This document shows positions 24,306 through 64,000 of a stretch of DNA of 64,000 bases, one piece after another. Numbering within the stretch: position 1 is the first letter of the stretch; each line of letters opens with the position of its first letter. The stretch lies in the NCBI RefSeq assembly GCF_029168945.1, contig NC_083608.1, positions 14,464,136 to 14,528,135 of the forward strand, given 5' to 3'. Both the position numbers and the translations under genes were made by a program. This DNA comes from Cannabis sativa. Its lineage: Eukaryota; Streptophyta; Magnoliopsida; Rosales; Cannabaceae. The notes under the pieces are model-generated. The model had not been told where the DNA came from, did no database searches, and saw only the letters and a list, made by a program, of their open reading frames with translations.

Positions 24306-25736
24306 ATGATATACTCTTCTAGCCCACCTCTACTTGATCACTATGGAGCTCTTTTGAGACACTCAAAAACAACAACAACCACCTTGCAGAAAACTCAAGA
24401 GTGCAATAATGGCCACTACTTCAATAATGGAGTGGTCATGGAAGAATGCCAACTTCCATTGATAGACCTCAATGGCTTAAAAAGTCATGACATGTGGGAG
24501 CAGGCAGAATGTGTTAGAGCAATCTCAAAAGCTTCATCAGAATGGGGTTTTTTCCAAGTAGTGAACCATGGAATAAGCCCTGAGTTAGTGAAGAGGATGA
24601 GGGAACATCAAATGAAACTTTTTGAAGCACCCTTTGAACACAAAGCTTCTTCTAGGCTTTTGAATAATTCATACAAGTGGGGGACACCAACTGCTACTCG
24701 TCCTAACCAGTTTTCTTGGTCCGAAGCTTTCCACATTCCTCTCACTAAAATTTCAGATGAATCTTGCTATGGAGAGTTTAGCTCCTTAAGGTAATTGCAA
24801 AAAGGAAAATAGTAAAAACTACACATACCCTTTTGAGCATTATGCAATCACATTTCATGATATAGAATTAGGAGAAAGTACCTACTTGTAATGACACCCT
24901 TTTGGAATGGATGACTAACTGCATTGTTTTCATTTTTTTTTACTCAGGGAAGTGACAGAAGAATTTGCATCAGCCATGTCAAATCTAGCAAGGTTGCTGG
25001 CTGGGATTCTGGTGGAGAACTTGGGCCACCACAGACAAGTTTTGGAAGACATTTGTGAGGAAAGCACATGCTTTCTTCGCTTGAATCACTACCCGGCTTG
25101 CCCAGTTTCTTCAGATATTTTTGGTCTGGTGCCACATACTGACAGTGGCTTTCTCACAATTCTTTGTCAAGATCAAGTTGGTGGACTTCAGCTCATGAAA
25201 GATTCCAAATGGGTATCTGTAAAACCAAACCAAGAAGCTCTTATTGTCAATATTGGAGATCTCTTTCAGGTAAAAACTATTCTATCTGACTATTATTATA
25301 ATGCCTCTTCTAAGATTTGCTCATTTTGTTGACTCATAAAGTCTAAGTTGACTCAATCTGGATTTCCTAATAATATGGTCCATGACATCTTTAATGTAAT
25401 TAATATCATACCATGTTAAAACACAATTAAATAATGAGTTGTTAACAAAAATAATAGGCATGGAGCAATGATGTGTACAAAAGTGTGGAGCACAGAGTAA
25501 TGGCTAGCAAGATGGAAAGATTCTCAGTAGCTTACTTCCTCTGCCCTTCATATGATTCTTTGATTGGGAGCTGCAGAGAGCCTTCAATCTACAGAGACTT
25601 CACTTTTCGTGAGTACAGAATGCAAGTCCAAGAAGATGTTAAGAAGACCGGGCGCAAAGTAGGCCTTTCGAGGTTTCTTCTTCATGATCAAGATCAAAGT
25701 ATGCATACTAGAGTAATGCAGAAGAGGCAGCTTTGA
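24306..25736 (+). CDS. GA2OX8: C20-gibberellin 2-beta-dioxygenase (GA2ox8-like)
   Basis: A three-exon gene: 24306-24790, 24948-25269, 25458-25736. Splice sites are GT-AG and the joined frame gives 361 residues. It is a 2-oxoglutarate/Fe(II) oxygenase. Iron ligands are H225, D227 (PHTDSGF) and H281 (VEHRV); R290-x-S292 binds 2-oxoglutarate. The N-terminal DIOX region includes EWGFFQVVNHGIS at about 80-92. YKWGTP, FSWSEAFHIP and the QEDVKKTGRKVGL tail match the C20-GA 2-oxidase subgroup (Arabidopsis GA2ox7/GA2ox8). Those enzymes 2-beta-hydroxylate C20 precursors such as GA12 and GA53 in the cytosol and so lower active gibberellin. Length and intron positions fit the family. The C-terminus (LLHDQDQSMHTR...) is longer than in the Arabidopsis protein. 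A later in-frame ATG (MEECQLP) exists, but the first agrees with the TATA position. The symbol denotes closest subgroup, not proven orthology. Confidence 0.93.
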
Positions 25737-40358: not shown

Positions 40359-41048
40359 TCAAGAGAAAGTAGTAGTGGGCATTGAGTAGCGGCACAAAGG
40401 ACACAAATGGTTAATCTTTAGCCAAGAAACAATACAATTCTTGTGATAAAGATGAGAACATGGCATCTCTACGATTTTCCAATCTTCAAACAACAAGTTT
40501 TCTTGGCAAATGGTACAATTATTGTTGGTAATCAAATCATCACCCTCCTTAATATTCAGTTCTTTTAGTTTGTTTATAGATTCTTGTGTAGCAGGAACAT
40601 TTGAAATGACATCAAGTGCCTCTCTAAACATACTATCAAGTATCATCGATTCTTGTTCTTGTTCTTCACTAGTGAGAGCAACAATATAAAGGTTGATAAT
40701 AACACACTTAGAGGCCACAAAGGGAATGGTGTTAATATGAGTGTCGATGTAAATATCTATTTGGCTAGCAAGTATAGATCCTGCAGTTGGATTTGTCACA
40801 CCTACTCTAAATAGAATAGTTTTTGTGATGTTAGATTGGTCAGAAAAATATGAGTCGTGACTAAGTATAATTGATTGATTTACATTTTGAATAATTTGTT
40901 GAGAAGGACATATTTTATGGCAAAAGTTTACCATAAACACTAACAACTTATTGTCTTGTTCAAAGTGAAAGCTCTCTAATGGAAGATTATTTGAGCAATC
41001 AATAATTATACTCATATCGTAAATGGTATTTACAGTTGCCATCTCCAT
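40359..41048 (-). CDS. RING-H2 protein, putative E3 ubiquitin ligase
   Basis: An intronless ORF of 229 residues. The C-terminal RING-H2 finger has C178, C181, C197, H199, H202, C205, C216 and C219 (CTICQENLLFEDW to CPLC), with the W of SWLK in the usual place. Such fingers recruit an E2 enzyme for ubiquitin transfer. The N-terminal 170 residues are not a domain I can name. No transmembrane segment is obvious, unlike ATL-type RING-H2 proteins. Two starts are close (M1 and M3). A TATA-like ctatatatatat (about 41131-41144) lies about 85 bases upstream on this strand. Substrate and role cannot be inferred. Confidence 0.85.
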   Translation of the reverse strand: MEMATVNTIYDMSIIIDCSNNLPLESFHFEQDNKLLVFMVNFCHKICPSQQIIQNVNQSIILSHDSYFSDQSNITKTILFRVGVTNPTAGSILASQIDIYIDTHINTIPFVASKCVIINLYIVALTSEEQEQESMILDSMFREALDVISNVPATQESINKLKELNIKEGDDLITNNNCTICQENLLFEDWKIVEMPCSHLYHKNCIVSWLKINHLCPLCRYSMPTTTFS

Positions 41049-42560: not shown

Positions 42561-43143
42561 GGTGTTTATGGGCCTACCTTAATGGGTTGGAAATGAGTTA
42601 GATCCAAATTAAGCCAACCCAATTCAACCAGGCGCAACAAAAGAGTCAATACTAAAATATTTGTGGATAACTGATAATTCTAAGTGAAAATTACACCAAA
42701 TATGGGATTCTACAAAAAAGTTTGATAAATATGGCTTTTTTAAGTTTACCACCCTTATATGGCATTTATTTAAATTTGAAGTTATAAATGGTATTTTCTT
42801 TGCCACATTTTTGTAAAAATAACATTGAAAGCCCATATTATAAGTTTGTGCATTCAACCCATTTATAAAGGGTAAGATTGGAATTTTAAAGTATTTTTAG
42901 TGAACCGTTTATTTGTGAATTTTTTTTCTTTTTTAATTTTTTTTTTTAAAAATAAGGCTTGTCTTTTCATCTTCTGCATGTAATGAGTACCCTGTTACTC
43001 TGCCATTTTCATTTTCCTCTTGGTTGATATTAGGTCCGGTTCCATTCATCCTTTCATCTCCTTTTAGGGTTTTCAATCTCTCTCTTTTTCCTTTGTTTCC
43101 TTTCATCCCTTTCATCCCTTTCATTCCATTCATAATGCTCATA
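42561..43143. other. Intergenic DNA with TTTCATCCC repeats
   Basis: A pyrimidine-rich run with repeated cctttcatccctttcatccctttcatt lies at about 43078-43130. The minus-strand KGMKGMKGMKG frame is its translation. No gene. Confidence 0.5.
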
Positions 43144-43152
43144 AAATAGTTT

Positions 43153-44693
43153 GAGTAATTTGCGGTAAAAATACTTAAGTTTTATCCCGAGTAGCAGATA
43201 AATACCTAAGTCGTATTTTTGGCGGTAAAAATACCTTCTGTCACACTTCTGGAACTTCCGTAGGTACCTCTCCATTATGTACCAAGTTAGTATCTACGTG
43301 TCACTCGTTCATTGGTCCATGTCATTAATTTTTTTTTATTCATTATTTAAATGTTTAAAAATAATTTTAAAAATATAAAAAATAAACAAAAATAAATATA
43401 ATCAATTTTTTTTATCATTAATTCTTATATATTTAAAAATTAAATAAAACTTATTTTTTTAAATTAAAAAAATTACAAAATTAACAAACATATAAAACTT
43501 AAAATCTAATTCCTACAAAACCGATTAATAATAAAAATCATATAAAAATCTAATTCCTACAAAATAATTAAACATAAACACTTAAATTAAATTAAATTCC
43601 AAACCTAGAAAATCTGAGAACACTAAAATCCTGTTCTTCTCCCCCTTCTCTTATGCGATTCAGGTGCAAACCAGAGAACACCCCCATCGTCATCATCTTC
43701 TTCCTCCTCACCAACAACAACCCTATTTCACATACCATATCTCACTATCATGTATAAATCACGCTAAAATTACAGAAAAGAACAAAACCCATAACCTCAA
43801 ATCGTCTTCTCACAAAACTGAAAAAAAAAACCCAGTAAATTTAACCCACAGAAATCCTCATCTAAAACATCTTAGAAAAAAATAAAAAAGGTAAAAAAAA
43901 AATACCTAGAAGCCTTGTGCGATTTTCTTGAGTGCACAGAAGCATCATCGTCTTCCTCTTGTGCGATTGCAACATCATCGTCGTCCTCTTGGCGATTGCA
44001 ACCCCAGCACTCAAGCTTCCCAGATCCAGATGTCGTTGTGCAACCCCAACACTCAAGCTTCCCAGCACTCAACCCCAGCAGAGAGAAATCGAGAAAGAGA
44101 GGGACTGACAGAGTGGATCGAGAAAGAGAGGGACTGAGAGAGTGGAGAGAACTCGAGCGAGATCGAGAGGGAGAACAAGCTTCGGTGTGGTCTGATGCTT
44201 GCAATCTTGGGGGTAGTGGGAATCTCATCCATCGGTTGTGGTGGAATGGCTCACGGAGGTCGGGCGGAGGTGCGCCGGAGAAGAAACCTAGGTCGGGCGG
44301 AGGTGCACGGAGAGGGAACCTGTGAGAAGAGAGAGATGAGAACGAGTTTTAGTTTTAGGTTTGTTTTGATTTTTTTTTATTTTATTCAGTTTAAATTTTT
44401 AATGTTAATTTATTATTATTATTTTGTATTTAAAATTATAATTAGGTTTAATTTTATTTTTATTTAATTTAATTTTTTTTAATTTTAAAATGATTTTTAA
44501 ATAATAAAAATAATAATTAAATGATGTGGACCAATGCGAAGATGACATGTGGACACTTACATATCACTTAACGGAGAGGTACCTACGGAAGTTCCAGAAG
44601 TGTGACGGAAGGTATTTTTACCGCCAAAAATACGACTTAGGTATTTATCTGCTACTCGGGATAAAACTTAGGTATTTTTACCGCAAATTACTC
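43153..44693. mobile_element. Mutator-like element with long TIRs (Pack-MULE candidate)
   Basis: Terminal inverted repeats of about 120 bases (43153-43275 and 44573-44693) start gagtaatttgcggtaaaaat and differ at only about two sites. Weaker similarity continues to about 175 bases. A perfect 9-base duplication AAATAGTTT flanks the element (43144-43152 and 44694-44702). Long TIRs plus a 9-base duplication define a Mutator-like element. It has no transposase. The interior at about 43630-44350 is much more GC-rich than the surrounding DNA and looks like gene leader sequence, so capture of host DNA is plausible. None of its overlapping frames (up to 136 codons at 43915) shows a recognisable domain. 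Confidence 0.9.
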
Positions 44694-44702
44694 AAATAGT
44701 TT

Positions 44703-46436
44703 TAATCTTACCTCTGTATTTTGTTTTTTATCCTTCTTTTTTTTTGTTCTAGCCATCGATTCTCTACTTCCAGGTTGCCGGCAACCCATTTCATTTTGGT
44801 TGGTATTGTGGTTTGAGTTTATCCAAGATAAGTGTATTTTCATCATGCTCATATAATATTGTAATATTACTCTCTGTTTTTTTGTTTTTTTCTTCCTTCT
44901 GATTTCGGCAACCCATTTATTGTTGGGTAGTGTTGTAATATTACTCAATCACTCACAACCATTGCTTGTACTGATATTGGTTGAAATGAAGAAACTGATT
45001 TTAACACGGTTCTCAAAGCAGCAGAGGAGGAAGGGTGGGCGGCTACGACTTTCTTTTCTTTCTTTTTTGGACGTGTGCTTTTATTTTGTTTGTTACTACA
45101 TAACTTAGCTTTCATTTCACTGATAATCAATATGAGAATAGGTGAAATATATTTACTTTAATTTATACACACCTCTTTAGTTGTATTTTCATTGCAGGGA
45201 CTCTTAGGATCAAACTCACAATATGTGTTTCATTTCCCTTGGGAGTAGCTTCTACCAATTAGAACTGAAATTAATTAGTTTAATGAAATATGGGGTCGAA
45301 GATGAGCTTGCTAGAAATTTTATTACCAATTGATTTTGTTTGAATATAATTTATTTTTGTGTTGGTTAGATTGTGGATTTCTTTTTTTAATTTTGTTTTT
45401 GGCATTATTATCCCTCTTATAGATTTCATTATTCTCAAATATTGTTTTTGTTGTTGTGCTGCTATTTTATTTGTCTGATATTCTGCTTGTTTTTATTTAC
45501 TTTTTCATCAAGTTTTGGTGTGAGCTCTTGGCTCTTAGTCTTTTTTTAAGCGTCCTTTTACTGACATTTCTAGTTTTGGTGCACTTAGTTTTTTTTCATT
45601 TTTTTATCATTATATTATTGTTGGAATAAAATGAATCTCACTTATTTTTTGTTTTGTTGTGGATTATCTCTCCCCACCATAACTAGTTAAATACAATATA
45701 ATGATGTCATTTATCTCTTGGTCAAAAATACAAACATGATACGGTTTTCATTTAAAAAAAAATCAGATTGAGCGAACTTAATTGCTCTAAAGAAGTTTCA
45801 ATGAAATTTCTATTTTTAATTTTGATTTTGACATGCCCATCCCTTTTATGTATTTCATCGTTGTGAGGTATTGTTTTTTGTTGTTGTGCTTCTATTTATT
45901 TTGTTATTCTCAATTTAACAGCAAGTATTTTCTTGTACTAATTCTAAAGTATTTTCTGTTTGTTTTCACTTATTGGTGCATGTGTTTGTTAAGAGCAATG
46001 CAGAAAACATTATCAAAATTATTAGTGAGATTGTTTGTTAAGGGAAATGCATGTCTTTTTTTTTTACAAAAAAAAACTCCAATTGTTTGATCAAATATTA
46101 CCTAAACTAGTTTTAGTTTGTGAGTCAATTGGAGATATTGTAGTATAAGGTTAGTTATTAGGATTATGTGTTTATTTTTAAATTTTATTATGCATCTTTT
46201 ATGACATATTTACTTTATTTAAATAATGTATCTGGTTTTAAATGTTTGTAATGTTTTGTAGGGTATACTCTTTTAGAATATATATTTTATTATGTTTATG
46301 AAACTGGTTTTATTCTTCAGTTTTTATTGTTTAAGAGCTTATAAACCGGTTTTATTTATTAAATTTTATTTATTGTGATTGTTATCATCCTTTCTATTTT
46401 ATTTCGTTTTCACTTTGTATTTAAATTTTTTAACAG
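44703..46436. other. T-rich 5' region of the DUF1985/Ulp1-like gene
   Basis: No coding frame of note. A block of about 110 bases (about 45379-45490) is repeated, diverged, at about 45808-45930 (ttgtttttgttgttgtgct and neighbours). AAACYRGTTT-type words appear at 45681, 46104, 46301 and 46343, suggesting that the mobile element hosting the next gene extends at least this far left. Confidence 0.5.
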
Positions 46437-49400
46437 ATGGAACGAGTTGCTGAAACAGGTTCAGTCATTGGCGGTAAAAGAAAATCTTCTTGTAATATTG
46501 GTGGTATATCAAAAAAGGGTAAAGCAAAGAAAAATATGGTATGTTTATACATTTTACATGTTATGTGTTTGTATTATTGTATTAAGATATGCCTTTTTTT
46601 TTTTTTTTTTTAATTTGAATATGTTTCACTATTATTTACATTATTTTTTTGTTAATTTTTAGGAAAAGTTGTCTGATTTCATAGATGATGAGCATATTGT
46701 TGATTTTATAAGTAAAGATAAAAAGAAAACCCTGTTGAAGTCTGTGACAAGAAGAAAGCGCCCGACGGAACCGAGTGGTTCATCTATTCCTGCTGCCCCT
46801 ACGGTAATTATAACAGGAAACTGGTTTCTTTTTGTCAATTGTATATTTTGTTATAATTTAGTTTTATTGTTGTGAAACTGGTTTCTATCCCTTATATATT
46901 TATTTGTAGGTTATATATTTCATTATTAAACTGGTTTTATGTAGATCAAAGTTGTTTTGATTTTTGTGAAACTTTTTTCTTGTTTTTGTATTTATTTGTT
47001 TATTTTTGTTATTTTTGATATTTTAAATTGTTTTTCTGTTTGTTTCTTGAATTTATATCTCATGTATTTTATTTTAAAATTAAACCCAAAAAGAGATTCG
47101 GAGGTGTTGCTCAAGATTTCAACGATACAAGTGTCCTCCTATAATGAAGTTAAGATTTTCACGTGAGCAGGAAAAAATCTTTCGAAAGACGCCATTTGGA
47201 TTTTTGTTTGATATGCATACACTTGTTTTTCAAAAAGAATTGGTGCATCTTATGTTATTAAGGCAACTTAACACGGAGAGGGATGATCAGGAGTGTTGGT
47301 ATAAGATAGGTTCTAAAGCCGTTAGATTTGGAGTAGAGGAGTTTTCCGCTATAACTGGTTTTAATTGTGGTGGTCAATACGACTTGAAACCTCTTAGCAA
47401 AAAGAAGATGTTAAAGTTTAAATCTAGGATGTTTCCTAACTTTGGCATTACTGACAAAGTCACAAGAAGGGATGTGAGAGATGTTTTTCTTGATCAAGAA
47501 TTTTTCATTGATGATGATGATGTAGTTAAGATGGGTGTTGTGTATTTACTCTCTTGCTACTTGTTTGGATTTACACATGACAAAAAGGTAGATAATTTTC
47601 TTTTTGGGCTTGTTAATGGTGATGATTATTTAGATGTTCTAAATGGTTTTGCAATTGGAAAAATACTTTGGGAGAGGACATTCTACTATTTGACAATTGC
47701 TATTAAGGATGGTAATTCTATATTTGATGAACTTGAAGCAAAGGGTAAGAAGTTCAAGAAGTACAAACTTCCTAAATTTGTTGTTCCCTTTCATGTTTGG
47801 CTTTGTGAGATTATTTCTAGCTTGTCCCCTGAATATTGTGTGAGGAAAGGTTCTGAGTTTCGCCGAATACTTAATTGGTAAAGTTTCGATGTTCCTGGTT
47901 TTGGGACTTTACTCGAAAAGGTTTTCAATAACCTTGAGGTATAATAGTCTTTGTACCTGGTTTTACTATTTGATTTTTTTTATTTGGCTTGTTTTATAGT
48001 ATAGAAACTGGTTTTTAACAGGTCATTGTAGATGATTTTTGTCTTACTGATGCTGAGAGACGTAATCGTCTTTTGAAGAATTTTAAGTTTCAAACCGTGT
48101 ATCTTCCTAAGAGTGTGGATGATGAGAAGGTGAGAAACCAGTTTCCAAACATTTTTTTTCACAAATTGTTTTGCTAACATTTGATATTATCTTTTTTAAT
48201 ATTTTTTGTCTTTTGTAGGATTTTGAGGAGAAATTTGAGAATATTTGCAAAAATTTATCATTTATTAAAGATTCTCAAGCATCCATTCGTAATGAGATGG
48301 CAATATTCAAAGATGAGTTTTCTGGGGATTTGGCTAAGTTGAGTGGGATGATTGAAAAGATGAACTCCAAAAACCATAAAAAGATGGACACAGCCGATTT
48401 GTTTGGTGCTTCTGATAGAGAGGTAGATCGTTTATTATTGTTTATATTAACGAAATTATTAGTTTCTTTTAATTTTTATATGTAATTATTCTTTAGTATA
48501 ATTGATTATCACATTGAAACTGGTTTTTTTTTTAAGTTGTTACTATTTTTTGACTAATTTTTCTTTTTGTATTGTATTTTTTTCTTTATGTTTTTTTTAA
48601 GAAACTGTTCTTTTTAAAAAAAAAATTGAAGAATTAGTTTAATTTGTTGTTGATTAAACTAGTTTTAATGTTGGCATCGTTTTTTAAGTTATTTTTTGTT
48701 CCATTATTTTATTTTTTTTATGTTGTTGTTGAAATAGCTTTTTGAAGTTAATATGATTTTTTTAATATAGTTACCCTTATGTTTTTTCTTATTGTTTTTT
48801 GTATGAAACTGGTTTTCTTCTCTTTTAGTCAAAATATTTATTTTTTTTTCTTATTGTTTTGTGTATGAAACTGGTTTTCTTCTCTTTTAATCAAATTATT
48901 TAATTTTTTACAGGCTTATTATCGGGATTTGTCTGATGATGTTGGTGGTCTAGAATTGTCAGTTCCCAGTATTAAGTCTGTGGTACATGTTTTAACCATT
49001 TTTTTGTATATTTTGAAACCAGTTTATGTGATTTTGAATCTTTTTTTCCCTTTTTATATAACTAGTTTCTTTCTGTTATGTATGTTCATGAGGACAATGT
49101 TGATTATGGTCAATATTATTTGTCTCCTGATGTTATGAAAGTTGTTGACAATACAATCAAAGGCGTTTTGTGTTCAAAAGATCAACCTTCTTGTGAAAAA
49201 AATAATAATATGGAAATGGTTGTGTTCGATGATTCTTATCAAACGCCAGAAAACCCAAAGCGCATTCGAAAGGAGAGTTCTATTGTATTGTCTCCTTTTA
49301 TAACTGATTTTGGATCATCTGATTCAGGCAAAGACAGCTTGATGAATATTTTGATTGGAGATAAATTGATAGTTGATGGGCTTAATCCTTTTAAAAATGA

Positions 49401-50725
49401 GAATGGAGATAATAACACTAGTGAGCAGTGTTTGAAGTTCATTCAATGGTTATAGCATAATATAAATATGAAAAGATAATCTAAGTTTTTTAGTTTTTTA
49501 TTTTGCGTTTTGTATATATGTGTTTTTGTTAGCTTTCTAATTTTTTCTTTATTCTTTTATATGTAGCACTAAGAAGAAATACTCCGACATTGATAATATG
49601 ATTGATCCCCCTATGGACTTCAGTTTTATTCAAATTGATGAGAAAATCTAGTTTTACACACTCCAAACTTGTGGGAAGTTCCTTTCAAGATCTGTAAGTT
49701 TTTTTTAATTGTTTTCTTATACATTATATTTTTTGTGTTTGTTGTTTTAATGTTTGTATAAAACTAGTTTTATTCTGTGTTTTATTTTTGAATAACGAGT
49801 TTTAGTTTATTTGTTTAATAACTAGTTTCTTGTGTTGTTTTTTTTTCCCCTGTGTAGCATATGAATGTTGCTTTCTATAATCTGAGAAAGAAAGTTAAAC
49901 AAGATCAATCTTTGAACCAAAGGATAACAACAACCGATTGTGTGTTTGATCAGTTGATTTTCAGTGAATATAACAAATTTTTGAAAAATCATTCCAATCC
50001 GAGCACAATTAATTTTGATAGTGTTATATCTCGCTATATTCTTGGAGAATATTTGTTTTCAAATACTGCTTGGGTTTTCACAGATCATGTTCTTATAATT
50101 GTTCATGTGAAAGATCAATCTCACTGGATTTTGATCCATTTTAGCATCAAGGACAGGATGCTTAATGTTTACAACTCTTTATCTGGGTTACGCAATCAGA
50201 ACAAGGCCTTGCCCCATGTTAAGACATATTCTGTGATGTTGCCTTATTTCTTGGAATTCCTCAACTTTTATGCATCGAGGTCAGATCTTAGCATGGAAGT
50301 TGGTCCATATTCTGTGAGAATTAGGGAGCCTCTTAATTATACCTTCATTAAGGGGCTGCCTACTCAAAAGAAGAGGTAAATTTTCTAACTCTATAATAGA
50401 AACTAGTTTTATTAATACTGTTTATCGATATTCCTTTAATTTTCTTATTATAACCAATTTTATAATATATATTTTATGTTTGATATTTTTATATTTTTGT
50501 TTGTTAAAATTTTTATTAAATACAGTGAGTGTGGAGTTTTTGTGATTAAGTTTGCTGATTTGTTCATCAATGGGAAGATAAATGAGATACCACGAAATAT
50601 GGCTGATAGGATTGCAACTTACAGAGATGATTTGGCTGTTAGTTTATTTACTCATGCTTGGAGGAAACAGATTGGTGGGTATCAGACTGAAGATGATGTT
50701 CAAGTCCAATAGGAAAAGTCAAAGA
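46437..50725 (+). pseudogene. DUF1985 / Ulp1-like cysteine protease gene of a Mutator-like element
   Basis: Exons inferred from GT-AG sites: 46437-46538, 46663-46803, about 47096-47938, 48022-48129, 48219-48422, 48914-48979, 49093-49448, 49567-49693, 49858-50375, 50526-50725. Exons 1-2 give a basic N-terminus. Exon 3 is a DUF1985 domain (FRKTPFGFLFDM, VHLMLLRQL, EEFSAITGFNCGG). The last exons form a C48/Ulp1-type domain with His in SHWILIHF, Asn where Asp is usual (VYNSL), Gln in LPTQKK and Cys in ECGVFVIKFADLF. This pairing is known from ULP-like genes carried by plant Mutator-like elements. Damage: stops at 47879-47881 and 49648-49650 (where Trp is expected), a possible frameshift at about 47150 (upstream residues VLLKISTIQVSSYNEVK lie in another frame), a tag at 50710-50712, and a retrotransposon inserted after 50725. 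Confidence 0.85.
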
Positions 50726-52543
50726 TGTTGGAAATTATTTTACCAGGATCTAGATTTACTAACAAGTATGTTTGATTAACATCCTAATATAAATTCTAAA
50801 ACAATGAAAATAAACACATATAAAGTTAAGAAAACCTTACAGTGGGTGCAGTAAAAAATTATGACTCCTTCCATTCAGATCTCTAGCCCTTGATTCCTTT
50901 CTGTAGCAGAGCATAATCAAGATCTGAATCTGGATCTTCTTTTCTCCTTCTTTAATGCAGAATTTTCATAGTCTTACATACTATGATTGAGGTACCACTT
51001 GATGTGTGTGGGCACTACTCATTCACTCAAAGGTTTCGAAAATAGAAGAGAAGAAAAGAGAGAGAAAGTGGCATGTGGCTTTTCTCTGAAGGAAACAATG
51101 TGTTCAAAGATGTGTGTATTTCCTCAAGCCAACACTTTCTATTTATAGAAAACCCTCTAGGTTTAGGTTAGAATTGTATGTCATTAAAATAATGGAAACT
51201 ACAAATGGAATTTCCTATGCATGTGGCCGACCATACAAAAGGTATTGGGCATCACTTTGCAACTTTCCCATTTTCTTATTTTCCATTTCCATTTTCTCAA
51301 AAATGCCAATTTTCCAATTTAAAAATAATTATTAATTAATATGGCCATTTAATATATTTATTAATTTAGACATATAAAGTCTCTTAATCAATAAATAAAC
51401 CTAAAATCTCTTTTCTTTACAATTTCGCCCTTGCTTAGTGAAAATTCATAAAGTGGACATAGTCTAACTTTTAGAATTATAATTGATTAATCAAAATCAA
51501 TTAACTGAGTCTTACAAGCAGTATGGTCTCAACTAGTATGGGGACCATGGGTCAATATAACCGAGCTTCCAATAAGTCAAACCGAATTTACCAAGTAAAT
51601 TCCCTAACTTATTAATTCCTCATTGAATCCACACTTAGAACTTGGAATTGCACTCTCAGTCATATAGAACGCTCTATATGTTCCATGATATAGACATGTC
51701 ATTAGTTATCCATTGTTATAACCCTGATGTGATCAATGACCCTCTAATAGATGATCTACATTGAAAAGGCACTAGTGTTACCGCTACACCTTCAATGTAT
51801 TTTATCCTTAAAACACTTAGCTCCGTATAAATGATATTTCAGCAAAGTGAAATGAGATCTCCACCATTTATTTCTGTTTAGCCAAGCTCGAAGGATATCA
51901 TCGTTTCACTTCTAAGTTCCTATAGAAGTTGTAGATTCCATCTTTATGGTAGCGCTCCCACTCAATTATACTATCATGTTCCCAAAATGTACGTATCACC
52001 CTGACCCAAAAGTAGGCTTAACTAACAAATCAAAGAACATGTATAGTACTCTTGAGATCGAACCTACCCATATCAGGATTAAGGTCATTTGATCTAGGAT
52101 CAACAGGTGATATTGAATTGAATAGATATTACGGTAAGTTTTAATATATCTAATCAAAGTTCAATATCGGTCCCTTCCGATGTATACTCCATACATCCGA
52201 TACTGGTAAACTTTGCCAATGTCCTGGAAAGGACATAACACTTTTCCAAGGTGTAAGAATACCTATCGCTGATTATACCATGTCAGTCTAAATCCAGTGT
52301 TCTGACAAATCAGGGAAAAAACTTTTGAACATATAATTAAGATTATACTCCACTGTGCTGACAACACTATAATCTTTAACAAACTCATATGTTCTGGACT
52401 TAAAAATAATTCATACATTATATACATATAATCATGAAATAAATCATGTGAACCATGCAACATAAAATGTTATTTCTGATCTTTATTAATAAGTAAATCT
52501 GATTATATTGAAATGAGTTTTATTTAGGGCACAAAACCCAACA
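50726..52543 (-). repeat. 3' LTR (element orientation) of the LARD-like element
   Basis: 1818 bases. It lacks about 35 bases present in the partner LTR near 59352-59386. The 73-codon frame at 51114 lies in it and recurs in the partner at 59143; neither is a gene. Confidence 0.92.
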
Positions 52544-52554
52544 AACTCCCATTT

Positions 52555-55500
52555 GCACTAATATAAAACAAAAAGTGTATTTCAAATAATCATTAACACC
52601 TTGATATACGAATCAAGTGTAGTAGTAGTAAACTCCTCGTAATGGGATCTGACAGGTTCAATTAACAATAACCTTTTCTCCACCATTACTTTCCCTTAAT
52701 CACAAAATCCTTGACATTGTGAAATTCCTCTCTATATGTCTACTCTTTTGGGATACTGGATTCTATACCTTTGGCAACTACTTTTGGTTATTCAGGAAAT
52801 AACACTAGTAGTTAAGACAGGTTGGAACGGTGCCACAATTGTATAGAACTTTCCTTAGACTGAATAAGTATCTTTCCTCCAACTTTTAACATTCAACCTC
52901 TCTCTGGTAGACTAAGAGATTTCAGATAGGTTTTTACACTTCTCCAAAATCACTACTCCATCCACAGAGTAATCACCATCTTATCAGCAGACTTTCTAGC
53001 ACAAAGGCAAGTCTCGAAATCTGATGTGGTGTAGTCTAAGAGTTTCAAAAACACCCTTATTGACTAACATATAGTTCCTCTTCTTAATCTTAAGATTTTA
53101 CTTGATTCTCTTCCAATGTTCCTCTCCTGGATTAATCTGATACCTACTCATTACTCCCACTCAACAGCAGGTGTCTGGTCTAAGGCATACAAAAACATAT
53201 CTGAGACCTCTCACTGTTGATTTAAGAAATTCTTTCATAGCTTTATCTTCTCTGGAATAGTTGAGACTTTTCCTTAGATAAATAAAATCTATGTCTAAGA
53301 AGTTGTGAAGCTTCTATAGATTGCCATTGGAAAGAAAATGCTTCAGCATCTTACTAAAGTAAGTTGCTTGCATTAGAGTAAGTAATTACCAGGTATACCA
53401 CAAGCCATAGGTTTAGATAAACTCAAACCTATAATACTAGGAACAATAAGTTTTGTTAAGTCCATTGAATAGACTTATTAACGAAAATTTCCTTTCATGT
53501 CCTTGTAACAGAAAACTTTAGGTTACTCCATGTGAATGGATCCAACCATAGTTCTATTGGCTTTCTTCTTAGTTTCTTATCTTGACAATCCATTACTTGT
53601 TTAAACTCACAATGGATTTTAATCACTAGTATCTTCCAAGTCATGAGAAGGTAAAGTTCCTTGAAACTCTCCCACTACGACAAGGTACCGTGAATTATGT
53701 CTAAGAAAACTAAATGGTATTGACCTCTTCGGTTGTGTTAAGACAACAGAGGCAGTGGGATCATCTTGTAACGAATAAGATGATAGAACACTTATGGAAT
53801 CAAGAAAAATTATCTCCTTTATTTGCTACTTTATTTTCAGACTTAGTCATTTTCTTAGAAAAGTAGTATTTGTTTTAACAAACACTTTCTTGTCTAATGA
53901 CTATGGGATGGTCCACCCCTAATCACTTAGAATAGCTAACAAACATGCAAACCAGGGTTAGCAGTTCTAGCTTTTCTTAAGATTTCGATTAAGTCATCCA
54001 TGAATCTAGTAATGATTTACATTAAGTATACAACCATTGCATCATTCTGAAATTTTATTTCCATAGAAGGATTTAGGCAACGACTAGTAACTAATCATCA
54101 ATATGCAACTCGAATTTCTGGGGAGGTAAGTTTGGATATAATTCAAAATCAAATTAATGATCTTTGAACTGCATATCTACTAACTTTTTCTCCACCCCTA
54201 TCAGTTCGCAAGATCTTTAACCACTTACCATTGCTAGAAATTCATGAAATTTTTCAAACATTTCAAATTTCTTTTATATAAGGTAAAATCTAGAGTGATC
54301 GTTTTAAGAATACAACGAAAACTCATATCCACCCCTGAATGTTCATCCATCTGCGAATGAGATGAACTTACTTTCAGTGGATATAGGCATATTAACTCTT
54401 TGCAGAAAATGATCTTGTCAAAACCACTATGAACAAGATACAAATGCCATAGATTTATAAAATATATGGTTGTATCTTTTGATGACTTAAGTTTAGTTAC
54501 ATCAAAGAGTTCTTAGAATAGTGCAAGTAGATTCTGGTCACAGAATACTAAACTCATACAGTTTAAATCCATTGAAAGAAAATGGTTATGAAACACTTGT
54601 GAAAGTGTAACTGTATAATTAGTAATTCTTTCTTGGACCACCACTACTAATCTAACTCTATGATTTGCCTATACAAGTAGGAGATTTCTAAGATTGAGGA
54701 TTTTTATTATTTTGGGATAGAATTTCGAGAATATAATCATATGCGTCATTTAATTTCTTAAGAGAAAATATTGAATGACTTTAAATGATTTATAGACCAT
54801 TCATCCAATGATATGTTATTAAGCTGATTCGCAATGAATAAGTTAAGAGAAATTAAGATAATTTCGTTTTAAATAAGAATCCAACGATGCTCCGATTAGC
54901 GAGAGTCAAAGTAATCTAATTTATACAATCTTCTTGTTTCATATTGTAAAATACTAGTCTAAGGTGTCATCAATTGATGAACAGCTAGATGTTTCATATA
55001 CAATATTTATCTTTCGAGATCTAACACTATTATGTTAGTCTAATGGTGAAAATCCATTAGGGATTTATCTCATTAGAAAAACAAACCAAGTTAGACCAAC
55101 AATGAAGATTCGAAATTAAACTACAATTTAATAACAGAAAATAACATGGTTCAATACAAATTCATACACAATTCAGAAATTATTAAAGCATATAGCAAGT
55201 AGGAATGACAAGTGAAAATACTAAAACATACAATCCTAAATAATTTCCAAGGTTTTCAACAAACTGATATCAGTGTCCCGTTTAGGCGAGAGTCAAAGCT
55301 ACCATCCATTGAATAGAGTTGTCAGCTCATCTAAAATGAACAACATTCTAGCAACCTTTTATTCGATCAAGATTGGAATCCGCGTTGTCCCGTTTAGGCG
55401 AGAGTCAAGGCTATTCTATCTTATGAGCTTCCAACATTGTTTCATATTCTTGCAAGTCTTATACAGTCGCCACCATTAGGGTGATCAATACTATATAAAA

Positions 55501-58500
55501 AACTTACAAGATTACTTATCTTTCGAGATTAAACGGTGCTAACTTGCTAATGAACGTTCCTCCATTAGGGAGGATTACTCACTAAAACAATAGCTATGTA
55601 AAACCAACAATGGATATCGAATATCCTAATAATAATAAAGCTCATTATTTAATAAAGGTTGTATTTTCTTCTAATATTTATTTTAATCAATTTATTTTAA
55701 ATATATATTTATTTAATTAAAATTTCCAATTTAGAATTAAAAATTCTAAATATAAATTTTAATGTAATATTTATAAATTATACTTAGATGGATATAAAAA
55801 TAACGTGAATTATTTCCATCTTAGTAATAATTTCCATAAATATTTAGAAAATTATTCAATTTAAGTTGTTTCAAAACTAATTTAAATTAATTTACAACTC
55901 AAATTTAATTTTCTATAAATATATATTGCATTTCGAAAAAGAAGTGTATAATAATACTACTTTCGAAAATGCTTTAAAATAAAATAAAAATAAATTCTGG
56001 AAAATTACTCTAATTTTATGTTGGCCCAAAATTAATAAAAATTAATTTTCAACAAAAAATATAATTTTCCTATTTAATTAAATATCTAAGAAAAATTTCA
56101 AATATTTAAGTATCATGATTAAAAATCAACTTAAATATTAATTTTCTATTTAATTAAATGCACTAGAAAATACTTCAAGCAAAACAGATAATATCTATCT
56201 AGACTTTCATGGACTAATTAATTCAATTTCTAATTATAATATATTTTAGTTCATTTATTTTAATTAATCATTAAATAAAAAATCATTGATTTAAGTTGGT
56301 CCAAAATTAAATAAATAATTTTCAACTTTAATCTATTTTTCAAATAAAATTCGAAATTTCTGCATTAAAGAAATGCAATTTCGAAATTTTGGGAAATGAT
56401 TAATAAAATAAAATAAAATATATTTTGAAAATTATTCAAACTTAAGTTATTCTGAATTAAGATTCCAAACTTAAAATAATTTCCAATTTTAATGTTATAA
56501 CATGAAAATAACAATATTTAAGTATCATGATGAAAATCAACTTAGATATTGAAATTTCAATTTAATTAAATGTATTAAATTCAAGAAATAAATAATTAAG
56601 TATAAAGGAAACTTAATTATTAATTCTAGTTTAATACTAGGAAAATATACTAAACTTAGATTGTACCAAAATTAATTAAGAAACAATTAATTTCACAATC
56701 AATGATATTTTCCTATTTAATATTAGAAATAATAATTAGTAATAGAAATAACTATCTAGAATATATCATTAACTAAGTGTTTTTCTAAAATTAACTTCAA
56801 AATATTAAATGAAAAATAAATTTCATATACTTTAAAAGTTAATTATGTTGCTAATTCAATTTTAATTAGGTTAGACTAATATAATTAACCCAATACAATT
56901 ATTTAAATAAGGCAAATGGGCCTTCACAATTGGGGTAGTTCATGTGAGGGGGAGCTGGGTTCAGTATGTCGTACCCACTTCTATTGGCCCCCAACTCTCA
57001 CACAAGGCCCAAAAGAGAGGAATTTAACCTTTAAATAAATAATTGTTAGTCATTGAATAAGCTCAAATCTAATTGGACCTAAATAAATTTACTTATGTCA
57101 AAATTTATTTTAGCAACCTAGTCCATTTACTTAGTAAAAACTTAAATGGGCTTCCTATATGCATCTAAGCCCAAAAGCAAACATATAGGCTCACACAGGT
57201 CAAATGATTTGGATGGGCCCTATCATGTTACTAGGTTTACACAGATGAAAGAAGTACAAAATTTACCTGTTACAAATTATTTATAAGATCTATCGTCAAT
57301 TGGACTATGATTAAAATCAGATCATTGGATATGTCAACAAGTTAATCATAGCAATTTAGATCAGATAAATAATAGGTTTGTAAAATTTTTTTTGAATAAA
57401 CAATATTAATAAACAAACATTGTCCATGTAATAGATGTAAAAATAAGATATTAATATAATTAAATTATTATTCTTAAACTAACCAAATAAAGGAAACTAA
57501 TTTTAAAGTATCTAGGTTTATTTGAATCAAATTAAATTAAATATCTAATAAGATCAATGATTTGAAAGGAAAGAATCTCCAATATCACTTTCAGATCTTA
57601 TAATTTAATAAAATAAACCAATTTTAAAATAGATTTGGTTAGATAATTATTATTTTAGGAATAAAAGAATAAATGAATAATAATTACCGTAATTATATGT
57701 CAAAATATCTCAAATTAAGCAATATTCAAATTTCTACAAAAATATCTATGTTATTTAAATATTCAAGATATGATTTATAAATTTCCAATAAGAAAAAAAA
57801 ATGATATATATAGAAAAAAATATCATTTTTATACTTATAATTTATAAATAATTAAATATTTAACAAAATAACAAATTTTGAATTTGAAAATATTGTGGTA
57901 AGTATATCTATAAAAATATCTATGTTAATTTCAAATTTATTAATTATTTAATTTGTCATATAAGATAATTTTAATATAATATTTTAAATAAAAAGACAAA
58001 GTTATCTTTAAATTTAAAATATATTAAATATCAAAATATCTAACCTTATAATTAAATAACAAATAAATATTAAAGAAGTTAACAAATTTTTAAATCTGAC
58101 CATAATAAGAAATATTTAAAATTGGAAATATTCCAAAAAGGAAAATATTTAAAATTGGAAAAATTCCAAATTGAAAATATTTCAATTTAGAAATATTTAA
58201 AAAAAAAGGAAAAATGAATTTTGGGAAATAATCCCATGAAAAAATTGGATTTTTGGGGAAAAACTCCAAAAATCACAACTTTTGGGAAACTGCCCAGGAA
58301 TGGGCGTGCAACAGGCTGCACGCAGCCTTCATGCACGCGCGGATCAAAGGGATGCAGCCCCATCTGCCGAGAAACCTCGGGGGGCTGCAGGGTTCCTTGG
58401 GCGAGACTCGTGGGCGCTGGCAGGGTGCACTCGGACGTGTCACGCGAGCGCGATTGAGCACCCATGCATACCCGAAATCTCGATTTTCCAAAATTCATAA

Positions 58501-58739
58501 CTTTTTCAATTTTTATCGGAATCAAGTTCCGTAAAAACCGAAATTACTTAATTTTTCACAAGGAATCCAAATAAAATATTTTGAAAAATCGAAAAAAAAT
58601 ATTTTTCATGGAAAAAGGTACTGTACAACATCAACATTCGTCAAACAACACATAAACTAACATGAAACCATCCAAATCAACACAAAAACATATAAATAAT
58701 CGTTTTAATTCATATTACATGAAAGTAAATCATTACCGT
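52555..58739 (-). other. Non-coding interior of the LARD-like element
   Basis: Contains box sequences with gcgagagtcaa at about 54900, 55285 and 55398 (the last two as tcccgtttaggcgagagtcaa), an AT-rich central part, a short gggggagctggg block near 56950-56965, and a GC-rich island at about 58285-58470 close to the primer site. Frames of 70-110 codons over the island on both strands are products of its GC content. Confidence 0.7.
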
Positions 58740-58754
58740 GGCTCTGGTGCCAGT

Positions 58755-60607
58755 TGTTAGAAATTATTTTACCAGGATCTAGATTTACTAACAAGTATGT
58801 TTGATTAACATCCTAATATGAATTCTAAAACAATGAAAATAAACACATATAAAGTTAAGAAAACCTTACAGTGGGTGCAGCGGAATATTATGACTCCTTC
58901 CATTCAGATTTCTAGCCCTTGATTCCTTTCTGTAGCAGAGCATAATCAAGATCTGAATCTGGATCTTCTTTTCTCCTTCTTTGATGCAGAATTTCCATAG
59001 TCTTACATACTATGAATGAGGTACCACTTGATGTGTGTGGGCACTACTCATTCACTCAAAGGTTTCGAAAATAGAAGAGAAGAAAAGAGAGAGAAAGTGG
59101 CGTGTGGCTTTTCTCTGAAGGAAACAATGTGTTCAAAGATGTGTGTATTTCCTCAAGCCAACACTTTCTATTTATAGAAAACCCTCTAGGTTTAGGTTAG
59201 AATTGTATGACATTAAAATAATGGAAACTACAAATGGAATTTCCTATACATGTGGCCGGCCATACAAAGGGTATTGGGCCTCACTTTGCAACTTTCCCAT
59301 TTTGTTATTTTCCATTTCCATTTTCTCAAAAATGCCAATTTTCCAATTTAACCTTTTAAATGCCAATTCTAATTATTTAATAACTTGAAAATAATTATTA
59401 AATAATATTGTCATTTAATATATTTATTAATTTAGACATATAAAGTCTCTTAATCAATAAATAAACCTAAAATCTCTTTTCTTTACAATTTCGCCCTTGC
59501 TTAGTGAAAATTCATATAGTGGACATAGTCTAACTTTTATAATTATAATTGATTAATCAAAATCAATTAACTGAGTCTTACAAGCAGTATGGTCTCAACT
59601 AGTATGGGAACCATGGGTCTATATAACCGAGCTTCCAATAAGTCGAACCGAATTTACCATGTAAATTCCTTAACTTATTAATTCCTCATTGAATCCACAC
59701 TTAGAACTTGGAATTGCACTCTCAGTCATATAGAACGCTCTATATGTTCCATGATATAGACACTACATTAGTTATCCATTGTTATAACCCTAATGTGATC
59801 AATGACCCTCTAATAGATGATCTACATTGAAAAGGCACTACTGTTACCGCTACACCTTCAATGTATTTTATCCTTAAAACACTTAGCTCCGTATAAATGA
59901 TATTTCAGCAAAGTGAAATGAGATCTCCACCATTTATTTATTTTTAGCCAAGCTCGAAGGATATCATCGTTTCACTTCTAAGTTCCTATAGAAGTTATAG
60001 ATTCCATCTTTATGGTAGCGCTCCCACTCAATTATACTATCATGTTCCCAAAATGTACGTATCACCCTGACCCAAAAGTAGGCTTAACTAACAAATCAAA
60101 GAACATGTATAGTACTCTTGAGATCGAACCTACCCATATCAGGATTAAGGACATTTGATCTAGGATCAACAGGTGATATTGAATTGAATAGATATTACGG
60201 TAAGTTTTAATATATCTAATCAAAGTTCAATATCGGTCCCTTCCGATGTATACTCCATACATCCGATACTGGTAAACTTTGCCAATGTCTGGAAAGGACA
60301 TAACACTTTTCCAAGGTGTAAGAATACCTATCGCTGATTATACCATGTCAGTCTAAATCCAGTGTTCTGAAAAATCAGGGAATAAACTTTTGAACATATA
60401 ATTAAGATTATATTCCACTGTGCTTACAACACTATAATCTTTAACAAACTCATATGTTTGGACTTAAAAAGAATTCATACATTATATACATATAATCATG
60501 AAATAAATCATGTGAACCATGCAACATAAAATGTTATTTCTGATCTTTATTAATAAGTAAATCTGATTATATTGAAATGAGTTTTATTTAGGGCACAAAA
60601 TCCAACA
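58755..60607 (-). repeat. 5' LTR (element orientation) of the LARD-like element
   Basis: 1853 bases, followed on the minus strand by the primer site at 58740-58752. A TATA-like tataaatag on the minus strand (about 59169-59177) may be the promoter core. Confidence 0.92.
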
Positions 60608-60659
60608 AAAGAAACTAAAGGAGAAGAAAAATGCTAAAGGCAAAGGAAAAGAAGTTTGA
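60608..60659 (+). pseudogene. 3' end of the Ulp1-like gene beyond the retrotransposon
   Basis: Past the duplicated target AAAGA the frame left at 50725 continues with a lysine-rich tail (KLKEKKNAKGKGKEV) and a stop at 60657-60659. The tail resembles a nuclear signal. The insertion thus separates only the last residues from the protease domain. Confidence 0.7.
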
Positions 60660-61435
60660 GAAGAGGATGTTGATGTTCTGGAGCAGTCTTTTTGTAAATT
60701 TTTTTTATTTCATTTAGATAACTGGTTTTAGTAATGACAATGATACTTTACGGTTTAAATGTTTTTGTTTCTCTTTTGTTATCTTGGATGTGTTATGTTA
60801 AACACACTATGTTATGGTTATGAATGGAAATTGATGTTATATCGAAAAACTAGTTTTTATAAGTAGTGTTGCGTTAATTTTTTGTATTTTTAAAAATCTA
60901 TTTTTGTAGCTAATTTATTTTTCAGGTAAAACTTGTTTTATAATGTTGTTTATTACTTTTTTAGAAATTTGTGAAAGTAATTTTTTCACTGGTTATGTAT
61001 TGTGGGTGTTTTTTTTTTGTTTATTAATTTGGTTATAACTGGTTTTTTGTTTTGTTTAATGTTGTTTGTAGGATATGGTGTGTTTTGAGGGTACTAGTAG
61101 GCACATATTATTCAAATTTCAAGGTATCTATATTTTGTAATTTTTATTGTTGATGCATAACCAGTTTCTTTAATTTTATTAATATTTATAGTAAATATGA
61201 TAATTATATATTATTTATCTTGGTAAAATCTAAAAAAAATTATTTTTAAGCTGCCTTAATATCAAAACATCTATTTTCCTATCTAAAAAAATCAAATAAA
61301 ATAATAATAATAATAAACAATCTATTTTCAAAGCAATTTTATCAAATGTCATAATAACAAAGTAACCAGTTTGTAGCTTTTGTAACTGTAGTTTTTGAAA
61401 GCTACTTTTTTTTTTCCAAGTGTTTGTTCTATTAC
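60660..61435. other. Spacer between convergent genes of the Mutator-like element
   Basis: T-rich, non-coding. AACYRGTT words are present at 60720, 60847, 61037, 61159 and 61364, plus a near miss at 60929. It probably contains both 3' UTRs. Confidence 0.6.
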
Positions 61436-64000
61436 TTATTGTTGCTTTGTGTCCATCTTCTGTTTCTTCCGATTGGTTTGTTTGTAAATCTGTGGATTGT
61501 TGCATGTTCGTCGGTTGTGTCCAAGCTGTCCACATCTTGAGCATTTCATTACAACTTTTGGTTCTCCTCTAGATCTGATTCTTTTTTTTTTCTAGGTCTC
61601 CCTGAGGTCTTTTTTGTTTTTGGTGGCATCACAATCTTCTCCAAGCTCTCAGGTAGTCTCCATTCACTTTCATTAGGTAGAGGATGTACGGTTGTATCAT
61701 ATGTTGCTCTCATAGTTGATGTTTTGTAGTAGTCAGCCACATAGTCATAAGTTTTTAGTCCTCTTTTAGCAAAAACTGCTATTGCATGTGCACATGGTAT
61801 CTGATCTTGTTGGAACCTTCTACATGTGCATGTCTTGTCAAGTAAGTTTATTGTAAAATCCCCTTTGTCTACCACTTTTACTTAGTATAGTATAGTAGTT
61901 ATTGCTTCAACCTGTTTATATATGAAATTGTAACAAGTAAAAAAAATTATAAGCACATGTTAGTAACTGGTTTTTATGTATTAATATGTATTTTCTTTAT
62001 ATATGTAATAACTGGTTTCTCAACTTATTATAAATATAGTATACATACCTGGTACTTCATTCCCTTAACAAGATTATCTCTAAGTACTGTTTCAGCTTCA
62101 ACAGATTCTTCTGTGAATATTCCATTAGCTTCGTTTCCATTCTTCCACACCCATTTTTGACCTAAACTTCTTAGACATTCAATCATTAATGTAATTGGCA
62201 CCGATCTTGCAGCTGTGATTGCAGAATTGATTGACTCTGCTATGTTTGAAGTCATCATAGTGTACCTCCTTGTTGGGCAGTGGCTTCTAGTCCAAATATG
62301 ATGTCCTATATTTTCCAGGTAAGGTCTTATGCGAATGTCAATTTTGTCTATTTCTGACATGTAATGCTCAAATGAGCTGACCCTGTATGTTTTGGCAGCT
62401 TTCACAAAGTTTATAGTGAGCTCATCTCCATGTCCACCAAAGTTTGATTTGATGTTGTTAAGAAAGTGGAATATGCAAGCTCCATGAAAGTGGTCTGGGT
62501 AAGCATTCTTCACTGTTTTTTCAATACTTTTATGTCTGTCTGATATTATTGTTAATCCTGCATGTTAAAACTGGTTTTAGTTATGTATGACATATATATA
62601 TATATTTGTATTATGTCAGTAACCGGTTTCTTCAACAGGATTAAAAGTGATTAATGATGATTTTTTTTATTGAATTTGAATTTTACTGTAACTTGTTACT
62701 ATTCAAAAAAATATATATTATGTATATATATATATATATATAAATAAACTTAAAACCAGTTTTTGATATTGTACCTTCTCTATCACTAGATGTTTCTCTT
62801 ATTTTGTTGAAAAACCAATCGCAAGAGTCATCATTTTCTGAGTCCCCTATTTCGAATGCCAATATGAAAATGTTGTTGTTTGCATCCATTGTAGAAGCTG
62901 AAAATAAAGTCCCGCCAAATGATGTTTTTAAGAAGGTTCCATCTGTGATAATGACTGGTCTACAATGTTTCCAGCCTCTTATTGAATTTGCGAATGCTAG
63001 AAACAAGTATTTGAAACGATTTTTTGTATCTGTTTCCAAGTGTGTGATTGTTCCTGGATTTGATACTTTCAGCATGTGTAAGTACATTGGTAGCTGTTGA
63101 TAAGAGTCATCTTGTCTCCCTCTTGCCAATTCTAATGCTTTTTCTCTTGCTCTCCATGCCTTTTGATATCCCATTGACACCCCATAATCATATAGTGTGT
63201 CCATTACAATGTCTTTTGGTCTATGTATTCTTTTGATATCCAGGATTTTTTTTTTTTTACTATTTCTCCAATGATATTGCTATTTGCTTGTCTGTGGTCT
63301 CCCATGATTACATCCAATGAGCATTTGTGATCCTGGACATACTTCCTCACTTTGAATGTTGTTGTATTCTTGAATTTTGATGCTCTAAGTAACCAGTTAC
63401 AGTTATCATTAATACATGTAACCAGGTACTCTTTATTTTAAATTGAAAGTTGTGCAATATAGCATAAAAGCATAGTGCACATTTCAGCATCTTTTTTATC
63501 TTTGTAAATTTGCCCTTCTTCAATTTTGAAAACCCTATGATCTGTTATAATCTCCTTCTCTTCTTCATTCCTTTTCTTTTTTGTGTTCTTCTGTTTTCTC
63601 AATTATAAAATCAGCAACATTGTCAGCTACCTGAAATATGTTTGACATTGATAGGAACTGGTTATTTGTTTATGATGCCTCATCTTCATATTCTATGTCT
63701 TGAAATGATGGCTGGTTTGTAATTTGTAAAACCAGTTGTTAAACATCGGTATTTTGTGTTACGGTTCCAGTGTCAGTGAATTGTTGTGGATTTAGTTGCA
63801 TTGCATGCTGTTCAATTCTTGTGATGCAAAGTGGAGAGTCGCTCACTCCAAGCTGCTTCTTTCTTAGTTCAATGTAAAACAATAGTGAGTTGTCACTTAT
63901 GATCTTCATTGGTAATGAACCGGGGCTTAGCTGGTAGTTCATTTCAATTGGTGTGTTGCAGTTGATCTCATTCTTTACCAATTCAACCAATTCTTTCAGA
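61436..64000 (-). pseudogene. mudrA-type (MULE) transposase, decayed and running off the window
   Basis: Exons read on the minus strand: an N-terminal part beyond 63990 to about 63739, small exons between about 63722 and 63423, then about 63382-62775, 62557-62049 and 61911-61436. Joins at 62775/62557 and 62049/61911 keep frame and give GLTIISDRHKSIEKTV. Hallmarks: VRKYVQDHKC, YGVSMGYQKAWRAREKAL, NPGTITHLE, VIITDGTFLKTSFGGTLFSA, SENDDSCDWFF, FHGACIFHFLNNIK, NIAESINS, the SWIM finger CTCRRFQQDQIPCAHAI, and a CCHC knuckle CSRCGQLGHNRRTC (about 61500-61545). It would cut and insert the element's DNA. Damage: an in-frame TAA at 61884-61882, and frame slips at A runs near 63246-63258 and 61585-61594 and near 63570. 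It is convergent with the Ulp1-like gene. Confidence 0.88.

Follow-up and report, generated by a model that had tools for sequence, protein, structure and literature searches.

A Mutator-like element of Cannabis sativa carries the short word AACYRGTT many times over, mainly in its non-coding DNA, and we consider it likely that the family's own VANC-type protein, the DUF1985 and Ulp1 product of gene 1, has this word as its cis target. The element lies in a 64,000-nucleotide stretch of contig NC_083608.1 (assembly GCF_029168945.1, positions 14,464,136 to 14,528,135 of the forward strand), here called the window, and continues past its right edge, where positions are given as extended coordinates. 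The assignment draws on the enrichment of the word, its mainly non-coding location, its sharing with gene-less relatives that have an end in common with the element, the homology of the protein to VANC21 of Arabidopsis, and the association of the word with one DUF1985 clade.

AACYRGTT occurs 36 times in the window (AT 71%), and 32 of these copies fall within 45401-50712 and 60616-64000, the two parts of the element. Dinucleotide-preserving shuffles, 1000 for each part, gave 0.47 and 0.26 expected copies, with maxima of 4 and 3. The top-scoring 8-mer of the element, ranked without prior choice, was AACCAGTT/AACTGGTT; among 7-mers the first rank went, by a small margin, to a TA repeat. The left 45.4 kb of the window is at background, with 4 copies against 4.15 expected (100 shuffles). 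A nested retrotransposon has none, which proves little by itself because only 0.75 are expected there. The host assembly (770,685,239 bp in 18 contigs) contains 67,288 copies, or 0.087 per kb, and 11 were found across 14 arbitrary 10-kb genome stretches. The modelled non-coding DNA of the element has 28 copies in 3,825 bp, which by our hand-made gene models is 7.3 per kb and about 84-fold over the genome density. Two further copies lie beyond the right end of the window (extended 64191 and 64339), so that the full element holds 34 in 12,557 bp net of the retrotransposon. As a control the pattern was reversed: genome-wide, AAACYRGTTT occurs 19,069 times and its reverse 10,660 times, while AACYRGTT occurs 67,288 times and its reverse 134,610 times. 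The reversed 8-mer is the commoner word and therefore no fair control for AACYRGTT.

An earlier reading of this DNA, made from sequence only, had drawn attention to the word. AACYRGTT is present at all 31 positions listed by this sequence-only reading, and at 32 when the coding copy at 47353 is added; some of its positions mark the start of the 10-mer and lie one base left of ours. Its figure of about 30 copies of AAACYRGTTT was too high, as the full 10-mer accounts for 18 of the 32 element copies. It had rightly called the inserted retrotransposon motif-free, and the genome-wide count that it had proposed shows that the excess is not general. It had also noted few copies elsewhere; the left flank is indeed at background, but copies at 18303 and 24705 had been missed.

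The word is a dyad with a fixed 2-bp centre. Among the 28 non-coding copies the bases flanking it are always A or T (RW...WY), and the next-outer positions are a purine before the word in 24 and a pyrimidine after it in 25, giving the extended consensus RWAACYRGTTWY. The centre of the 32 copies reads CTGG/CCAG in 22, CTAG in 8 and CCGG in 2, a series that would fit loss of a central CpG as its origin, though this is only a suggestion. Introns hold 19 of the 28 non-coding copies. The earlier claim that nearly every intron of both genes and the spacer between them bear the word stands for the spacer (5 copies), whereas in gene 1 it applies to 7 of 9 introns, with none in 46539-46662 and 49476-49566. 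The copy at 48006-48013 directly precedes the 3' splice site of an intron (AACTGGTTTTTAACAG). The copy within the DUF1985 exon is probably a coincidence.

The ends of the element were first recognised in gene-less relatives and then located in the window. Read inward from extended 65122, the right end is GGGCTATTTACATAAATATGGGA, and the target-site duplication is a perfect 9 bp. The Mutator-like element, in which the sequence-only reading had placed the word from 45681 to 63737, extends from 42684 to extended 65122. With the first 200 bp as query, 40 genome matches were scored, including the element itself (of 275 candidates), and 35 of them start exactly at base 1. By coordinates, 5 of the 40 have a DUF1985 exon 92-97% identical to that of the window no more than 3 kb away.

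The relatives L002-L006 are five motif clusters at the start of contig 1 that were selected by motif and so show sharing, not frequency. None of the five, at 10 kb each, matches exons of gene 1 or gene 2 at E<=1e-4. The right-end sequence is common to L002, L003, L004 and L006; L005 is linked through other loci only, and its limits are approximate. Perfect 9-bp duplications flank L003 and L004, L002 shows 8 shared bases, and no target-site duplication was found for L005 and L006. From L002 to L006 the word occurs 12, 13, 19, 7 and 6 times (3.9-5.6 per kb). Sequences related to the nested retrotransposon of the window flank the elements in L002, L003 and L005, and the L003 element interrupts one.

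Gene 1 encodes a DUF1985 domain (Pfam E=2.1e-17; exon 47096-47938) and an Ulp1/C48 domain (E=9.8e-10; 49858-50375 and 50526-50712). Searched against the PDB, the DUF1985 exon of the window alone finds VANC21 (9lnj/9lnk) at E=1.4e-5. A 16-row DUF1985 profile finds it at E=3.9e-23, over profile positions 4-229 of 237, and matched no other PDB entry up to E=0.1. VANC proteins themselves carry DUF1985, and for VANC21 binding to a nine-base non-coding word is described both in vitro and in vivo (PMC5735166); VANCs that bear Ulp1 (KAONASHI type) are described in PMC13317346. The homology to VANC21 thus makes this a VANC-type system with its own motif and rules out an independently evolved analogue. 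The sequence-only reading had proposed a parallel motif/reader pair with the DUF1985/Ulp1-like protein as reader. That reader is now the best-supported explanation, but "parallel" does not apply to a homologous protein. Structure prediction for DUF1985 was uninformative (predicted local distance difference test, pLDDT, 40 from the single sequence and 53.7 from 16 rows), as was a Foldseek comparison of the predicted structure with the PDB, in which no match reached E<=0.001 and VANC21 was absent from the list. No relative of the DUF1985 exon was found among the viral contigs searched.

Both genes are broken in the window copy, a point absent from the earlier reading. Gene 1 has in-frame stops at 47879, 49453 and 49649 and an intron starting at 49476 without GT, hence its classification as broken. 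Gene 2 has several stops and frameshifts; its match to the Mutator DNA-binding domain is below cut-off, and a zinc knuckle was recognised by eye. Stop-free DUF1985 exons, 97% identical to that of the window, occur elsewhere in the same genome.

A genome search with DUF1985 gave at least 144 matches including that of the window (144 scored of 1,483 first-look candidates), many without stops. For words, the window was compared with 22 of the other 143 loci, at 4-5 kb each. In the window clade AACYRGTT occurs 18 (window), 17, 16, 11, 20, 15, 16, 16 and 3 times; the last is L039, a fragment that can be aligned to its relatives over no more than about 0.9 kb. Thus 8 of the 9 sampled members, window included, carry 11-20 copies, and related copies do share the word, as the earlier reading had wanted examined. 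All 14 loci of other DUF1985 clades have 0-2. A tree of 19 rows needs a single change of word label (support 94/95). In a tree of 23 rows the nine-row window clade has support 86/90, and a second change is needed to accommodate L039, which was labelled as word-free. Sublineages of the window clade are 42-49% identical to the window in amino acids and have no mutual blastn match at 1e-20, yet they carry 2.7-4.0 copies per kb. When AAC-N(s)-GTT was counted for s=0-8 in eight window-clade loci, only s=2 exceeded the highest of 40 shuffles, with 15-25 copies against 0.8-2.6 expected. C48 matches occur in 11 of 19 loci, including each of three clades with a word (two are described below), so the word is not tied to the presence of Ulp1. 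No C48 match was seen in L026 and seven 4-kb loci, whose stretches perhaps end too early.

Pooled distances between adjacent copies up to 110 bp (n=48, from 8 stretches) have a best period of 10.4 bp in the range of 6-25 bp tested. The mean cosine at 10.5 bp is 0.43, a value reached by 0 of 10,000 jittered sets, and five other choices of distance and pairing gave peaks at 10.3-10.5 bp with P from 0.0001 to 0.0067; as the pooled stretches are partly related, these P values are too small. The period is that expected for sites on one face of the DNA. Single sites turn over much like other words. In non-coding DNA, the sites that both partners of a pair retain (percentage of control words retained in brackets) number 9/9 (79%) for window/L021, 2/3 (61%) for L022/L029 and 3/13 (15%) for L023/L030; over all DNA they are 14/15 (82%), 8/11 (78%) and 8/20 (19%). 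Pairs of gene-less elements kept 11/14 (86%), 0/6 (32%), 3/7 (22%), 1/3 (27%), 2/6 (34%), 3/4 (29%) and 1/5 (27%). Purifying selection on single sites is not supported by these shares. Density is steady, at about 3-4 per kb, across sublineages that lack a blastn match; loss alone could not produce this, which points to replenishment by selection or local duplication. Of the two outcomes weighed in the sequence-only reading, conserved position or turnover at steady density, the second describes the data better, with turnover much like that of control words.

Several points weigh against the proposed assignment. By our gene models, four of the 32 copies are in coding or degenerate coding DNA (47353, 63391, 63656 and 63730), where the earlier reading had counted one (47353). 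VANC targets are often in tandem repeats (PMC5735166), whereas the window copies are mostly dispersed, with two short arrays. Helical phasing is absent from the window alone (12 distances, P=0.44), and equally from L030 (cosine 0.09, outside the pool), the gene-1 part (0.10) and L005 (-0.74, 2 distances) taken singly. Retention of single sites does not clearly exceed that of control words. Many sampled loci are near-copies, and the choice of L002-L006 by motif says nothing on how many relatives lack the word. With open reading frames masked, the top word of L022, AACYRGTT, scored 11.6, just under the highest of 60 shuffles (12.0); the top word of L033 likewise fell just under the highest shuffle. 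Finally, the transposase gene travels with the DUF1985 gene, so the clade association alone cannot tell which protein reads the word.

The main rival is the element's own transposase, for which the word would be a binding site. Its gene is within the same element, the same clade association is possible for it, and other plant DNA transposons are known to bear transposase sites in arrays. Sites of this kind should lie close to the element ends. In L004 a distance of about 0.18 kb separates the last copy from one end, but most copies stay clear of the ends and fill gene introns: in the window element the outermost ones are 3.0 kb from the left end, a distance that includes 1.6 kb of nested element, and 0.78 kb from the right end, and in L003 the distances are 0.32 and 0.69 kb. 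The element also encodes a homologue of VANC, a family shown to behave in this way, and we regard the transposase as an unlikely reader.

A splicing or transcription signal, either an intron element or the site of a host factor captured by the element, appears distinctly less probable still. It would suit the intronic majority and the sense-strand bias of asymmetric forms in the gene-1 part (9 CTGG to 2 CCAG), and AACCGGTT is similar to the Grainyhead site known from animals and fungi. The forms are balanced in the gene-2 part, however (6 to 5), and density is also high in the spacer and in relatives without an exon match. The word is moreover confined to one DUF1985 clade, although genes of the same type are present at the 14 other loci, and is sparse in the genome at large. 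Least probable, by a little, is a mutational by-product without a reader, seeded by local duplication or slippage and kept by drift: two short arrays of the window hold the word, copies in L003 show a 19-bp spacing and sites are not clearly kept over controls, but the flanks of the 28 non-coding copies share little past RW...WY, the same word recurs at similar density in sublineages without a detectable DNA match, the 2-bp spacer is strict and the pool is helically phased. Since just those two arrays (a 62-bp pair and 24 bp x 2.7) contain it, the word does not stem from one tandem expansion, in agreement with the earlier reading.

For the VANC-type protein as reader, a mechanism can be proposed by analogy with Arabidopsis. 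Intact family members would supply the protein, which would bind sites in introns, the spacer and gene-less relatives, probably two molecules at a time in a symmetric arrangement that matches AAC facing GTT. Once bound, it would remove silencing marks, with loss of methylation, and the family could be expressed and able to move. The window copy is a broken descendant in which the sites persist.

Other DUF1985 clades have other words. In the sister clade, L024, L031 and L041 carry 12, 9 and 10 copies of AAGTAAC/GTTACTT (0.9 expected in each), followed by C in 20 of 31. Counts in the other 20 loci are 0-1, apart from 4 in L035 (0.7 expected). Just 2.1 kb of L041 is shared with L024, and 8 of its 10 copies are outside the shared part. 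A third clade (L025, L032, L026, L033, L034 and L027; support 93/95) carries 9-18 copies of GTAAACH, more in 6 of 6 loci than in any of 100 shuffles, and the remaining 17 loci have 0-3. Where the DNA of its sublineages can be aligned, they are 67-71% alike. No convincing word was found in the sampled stretches of the clades of L028/36/37, L035 and L038. A 3-bp-spaced dyad as the sister-clade word was rejected as too weak (5, 5 and 3 in L024, L031 and L041 against 1.9, 1.2 and 1.4 expected). The candidate AACCGGAATTC for L026 was also set aside: all six CCGGAATT copies fall within 54 bases, and the L033/L034 stretches stop short of that part. In L026, whose gene is on the minus strand, the six CCGGAATT/AATTCCGG words occupy 4532-4585 in gene orientation. 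The evidence is evenly poised on whether at least three VANC-type systems exist side by side in this genome, with a separate word for each of three DUF1985 clades (AAACYRGTTT as a strict 2-bp-spaced dyad for the window clade, AAAGTAACC for its sister and GTAAACH for the third); the words look like rearrangements of one (G)TAAC / AAAC half-site.

VANC systems of eudicots are reported by Sasaki et al. 2022 (EMBO J) to have arisen there with gains and losses of DUF1985, DUF287 and Ulp1; motif sequence, density and helical periodicity are said to determine their specificity. The Cannabis case fits this diversified eudicot picture. It combines a DUF1985 homologue, a Mutator-like element with transposase and degenerate ends, a word in non-coding DNA and clade-specific words. 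As described by Hosaka et al. 2017 (PMC5735166), VANC21/VANDAL21 and VANC6/VANDAL6 of Arabidopsis are likewise Mutator-like elements with a transposase and a DUF1985 protein. There too a single short word has built up in non-coding DNA, including introns and intergenic regions, the word differs between related families, and targets extend beyond the coding family (AT9TSD1 for VANC6). The differences are that the Arabidopsis words, YAGTATTAY and AGTTGTCC/AC, are not palindromic whereas the Cannabis word is an 8-bp dyad, and that DUF1985 and DUF287 are named for VANC whereas the Cannabis protein has Ulp1 attached. KAONASHI (KI) Mutator-like elements, in the available part of PMC2528002, resemble the window element in lacking terminal inverted repeats and having an Ulp1-like gene opposite in orientation to the transposase gene; that part mentions no motif array such as the one here. 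The absence of a long terminal inverted repeat, the 9-bp duplication and the opposed Ulp1 gene place the element with KAONASHI. This kind of system is thus already known. A symmetric word and three word/clade pairs in one genome were not met in our literature searches, none of which used the letters of the word, and part of these findings may be in print.

The coordinates are collected in Table 1. The nested long terminal repeat (LTR) retrotransposon inserted 13 bases past the gene-1 stop codon. The nested element at 43142-44704 has 1.1 kb between its ends, with tandem repeats of 29-33 bp and a core rich in GC (0.49 in one 300-bp step), and looks like an inverted-end element possibly carrying captured host DNA. 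Left of the Mutator-like element, the window contains a Copia-type retrotransposon at 15787-20260 (gag, integrase and RVT_2 domains) with one AACYRGTT at 18303, and host-like genes at 24306-24794 and 40359-41048 (-) for a protein with a dioxygenase N-terminal domain and a RING-finger protein; the RING-finger gene is about 1.6 kb from the left end of the element.

Table 1. Features of the Mutator-like element, its genes, its nested insertions and its copies of AACYRGTT (positions of the window; extended, beyond its right edge).
Feature	Position	Strand	Basis or remarks
Left 9-bp target-site duplication TAATTCTAA	42675..42683		Identical 9-mer at extended 65123-65131; both abut the element ends
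Mutator-like element without long terminal inverted repeats	42684..64000 in the window, right end extended 65122		Ends GTGAAAATTACACCAAATATGGGA... and ...CCCATATTTATGTAAATAGCCC
Probable nested element	43142..44704		Motif-free; 210-nt inverted ends, 84% complementary
Motif copies upstream of gene 1	45681..46351	+	45681, 46105, 46302, 46344
Gene 1, VANC-like protein	46437..50712	+	10 exons modelled by hand; Pfam domains, VANC21 homology
14 motif copies in gene-1 introns	46804..50525	+	46819, 46876, 46929, 48006, 48136, 48518, 48657, 48807, 48869, 49017, 49060, 49762, 49820, 50401
Motif in DUF1985 exon	47353..47360	+	Exactly over ITGF codons (ITGF/ITGL/ISGL in relatives)
62-bp tandem duplication, one motif per unit	48782..48909	+	Motifs at 48807, 48869; tandem-repeat analysis
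Nested LTR retrotransposon	50726..60607		LTRs 95.6% identical; 5-bp duplication AAAGA, boundaries by eye; no motif
Motif copies in spacer between convergent genes	60720..61371		60720, 60848, 61037, 61159, 61364
Gene 2, Mutator-like transposase	61441..64000	-	MULE and SWIM domains; N-terminal part continues beyond window end
24-bp, 2.7-copy array with motif	61960-62020		Tandem-repeat analysis
Motif copies in gene-2 introns	61965..62761	-	61965, 62010, 62569, 62621, 62754
Three motif words in (partly degenerate) transposase coding DNA	63391..63737	-	63391, 63656, 63730

VANC systems are a clear case of sequence-specific escape of transposons from plant silencing. The DUF1985 clades with distinct words offer material to map DUF1985 residues to bases, with the VANC21 structures 9lnj and 9lnk as a frame, and the palindromic word points to paired binding, unlike the published non-palindromic words. 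If each clade does have its own word, the stepwise evolution of a protein-DNA recognition code could be readable from the DUF1985 tree, and would include a switch between half-site and symmetric paired binding. Outside Arabidopsis, the word might act as a short tag for targeted demethylation.

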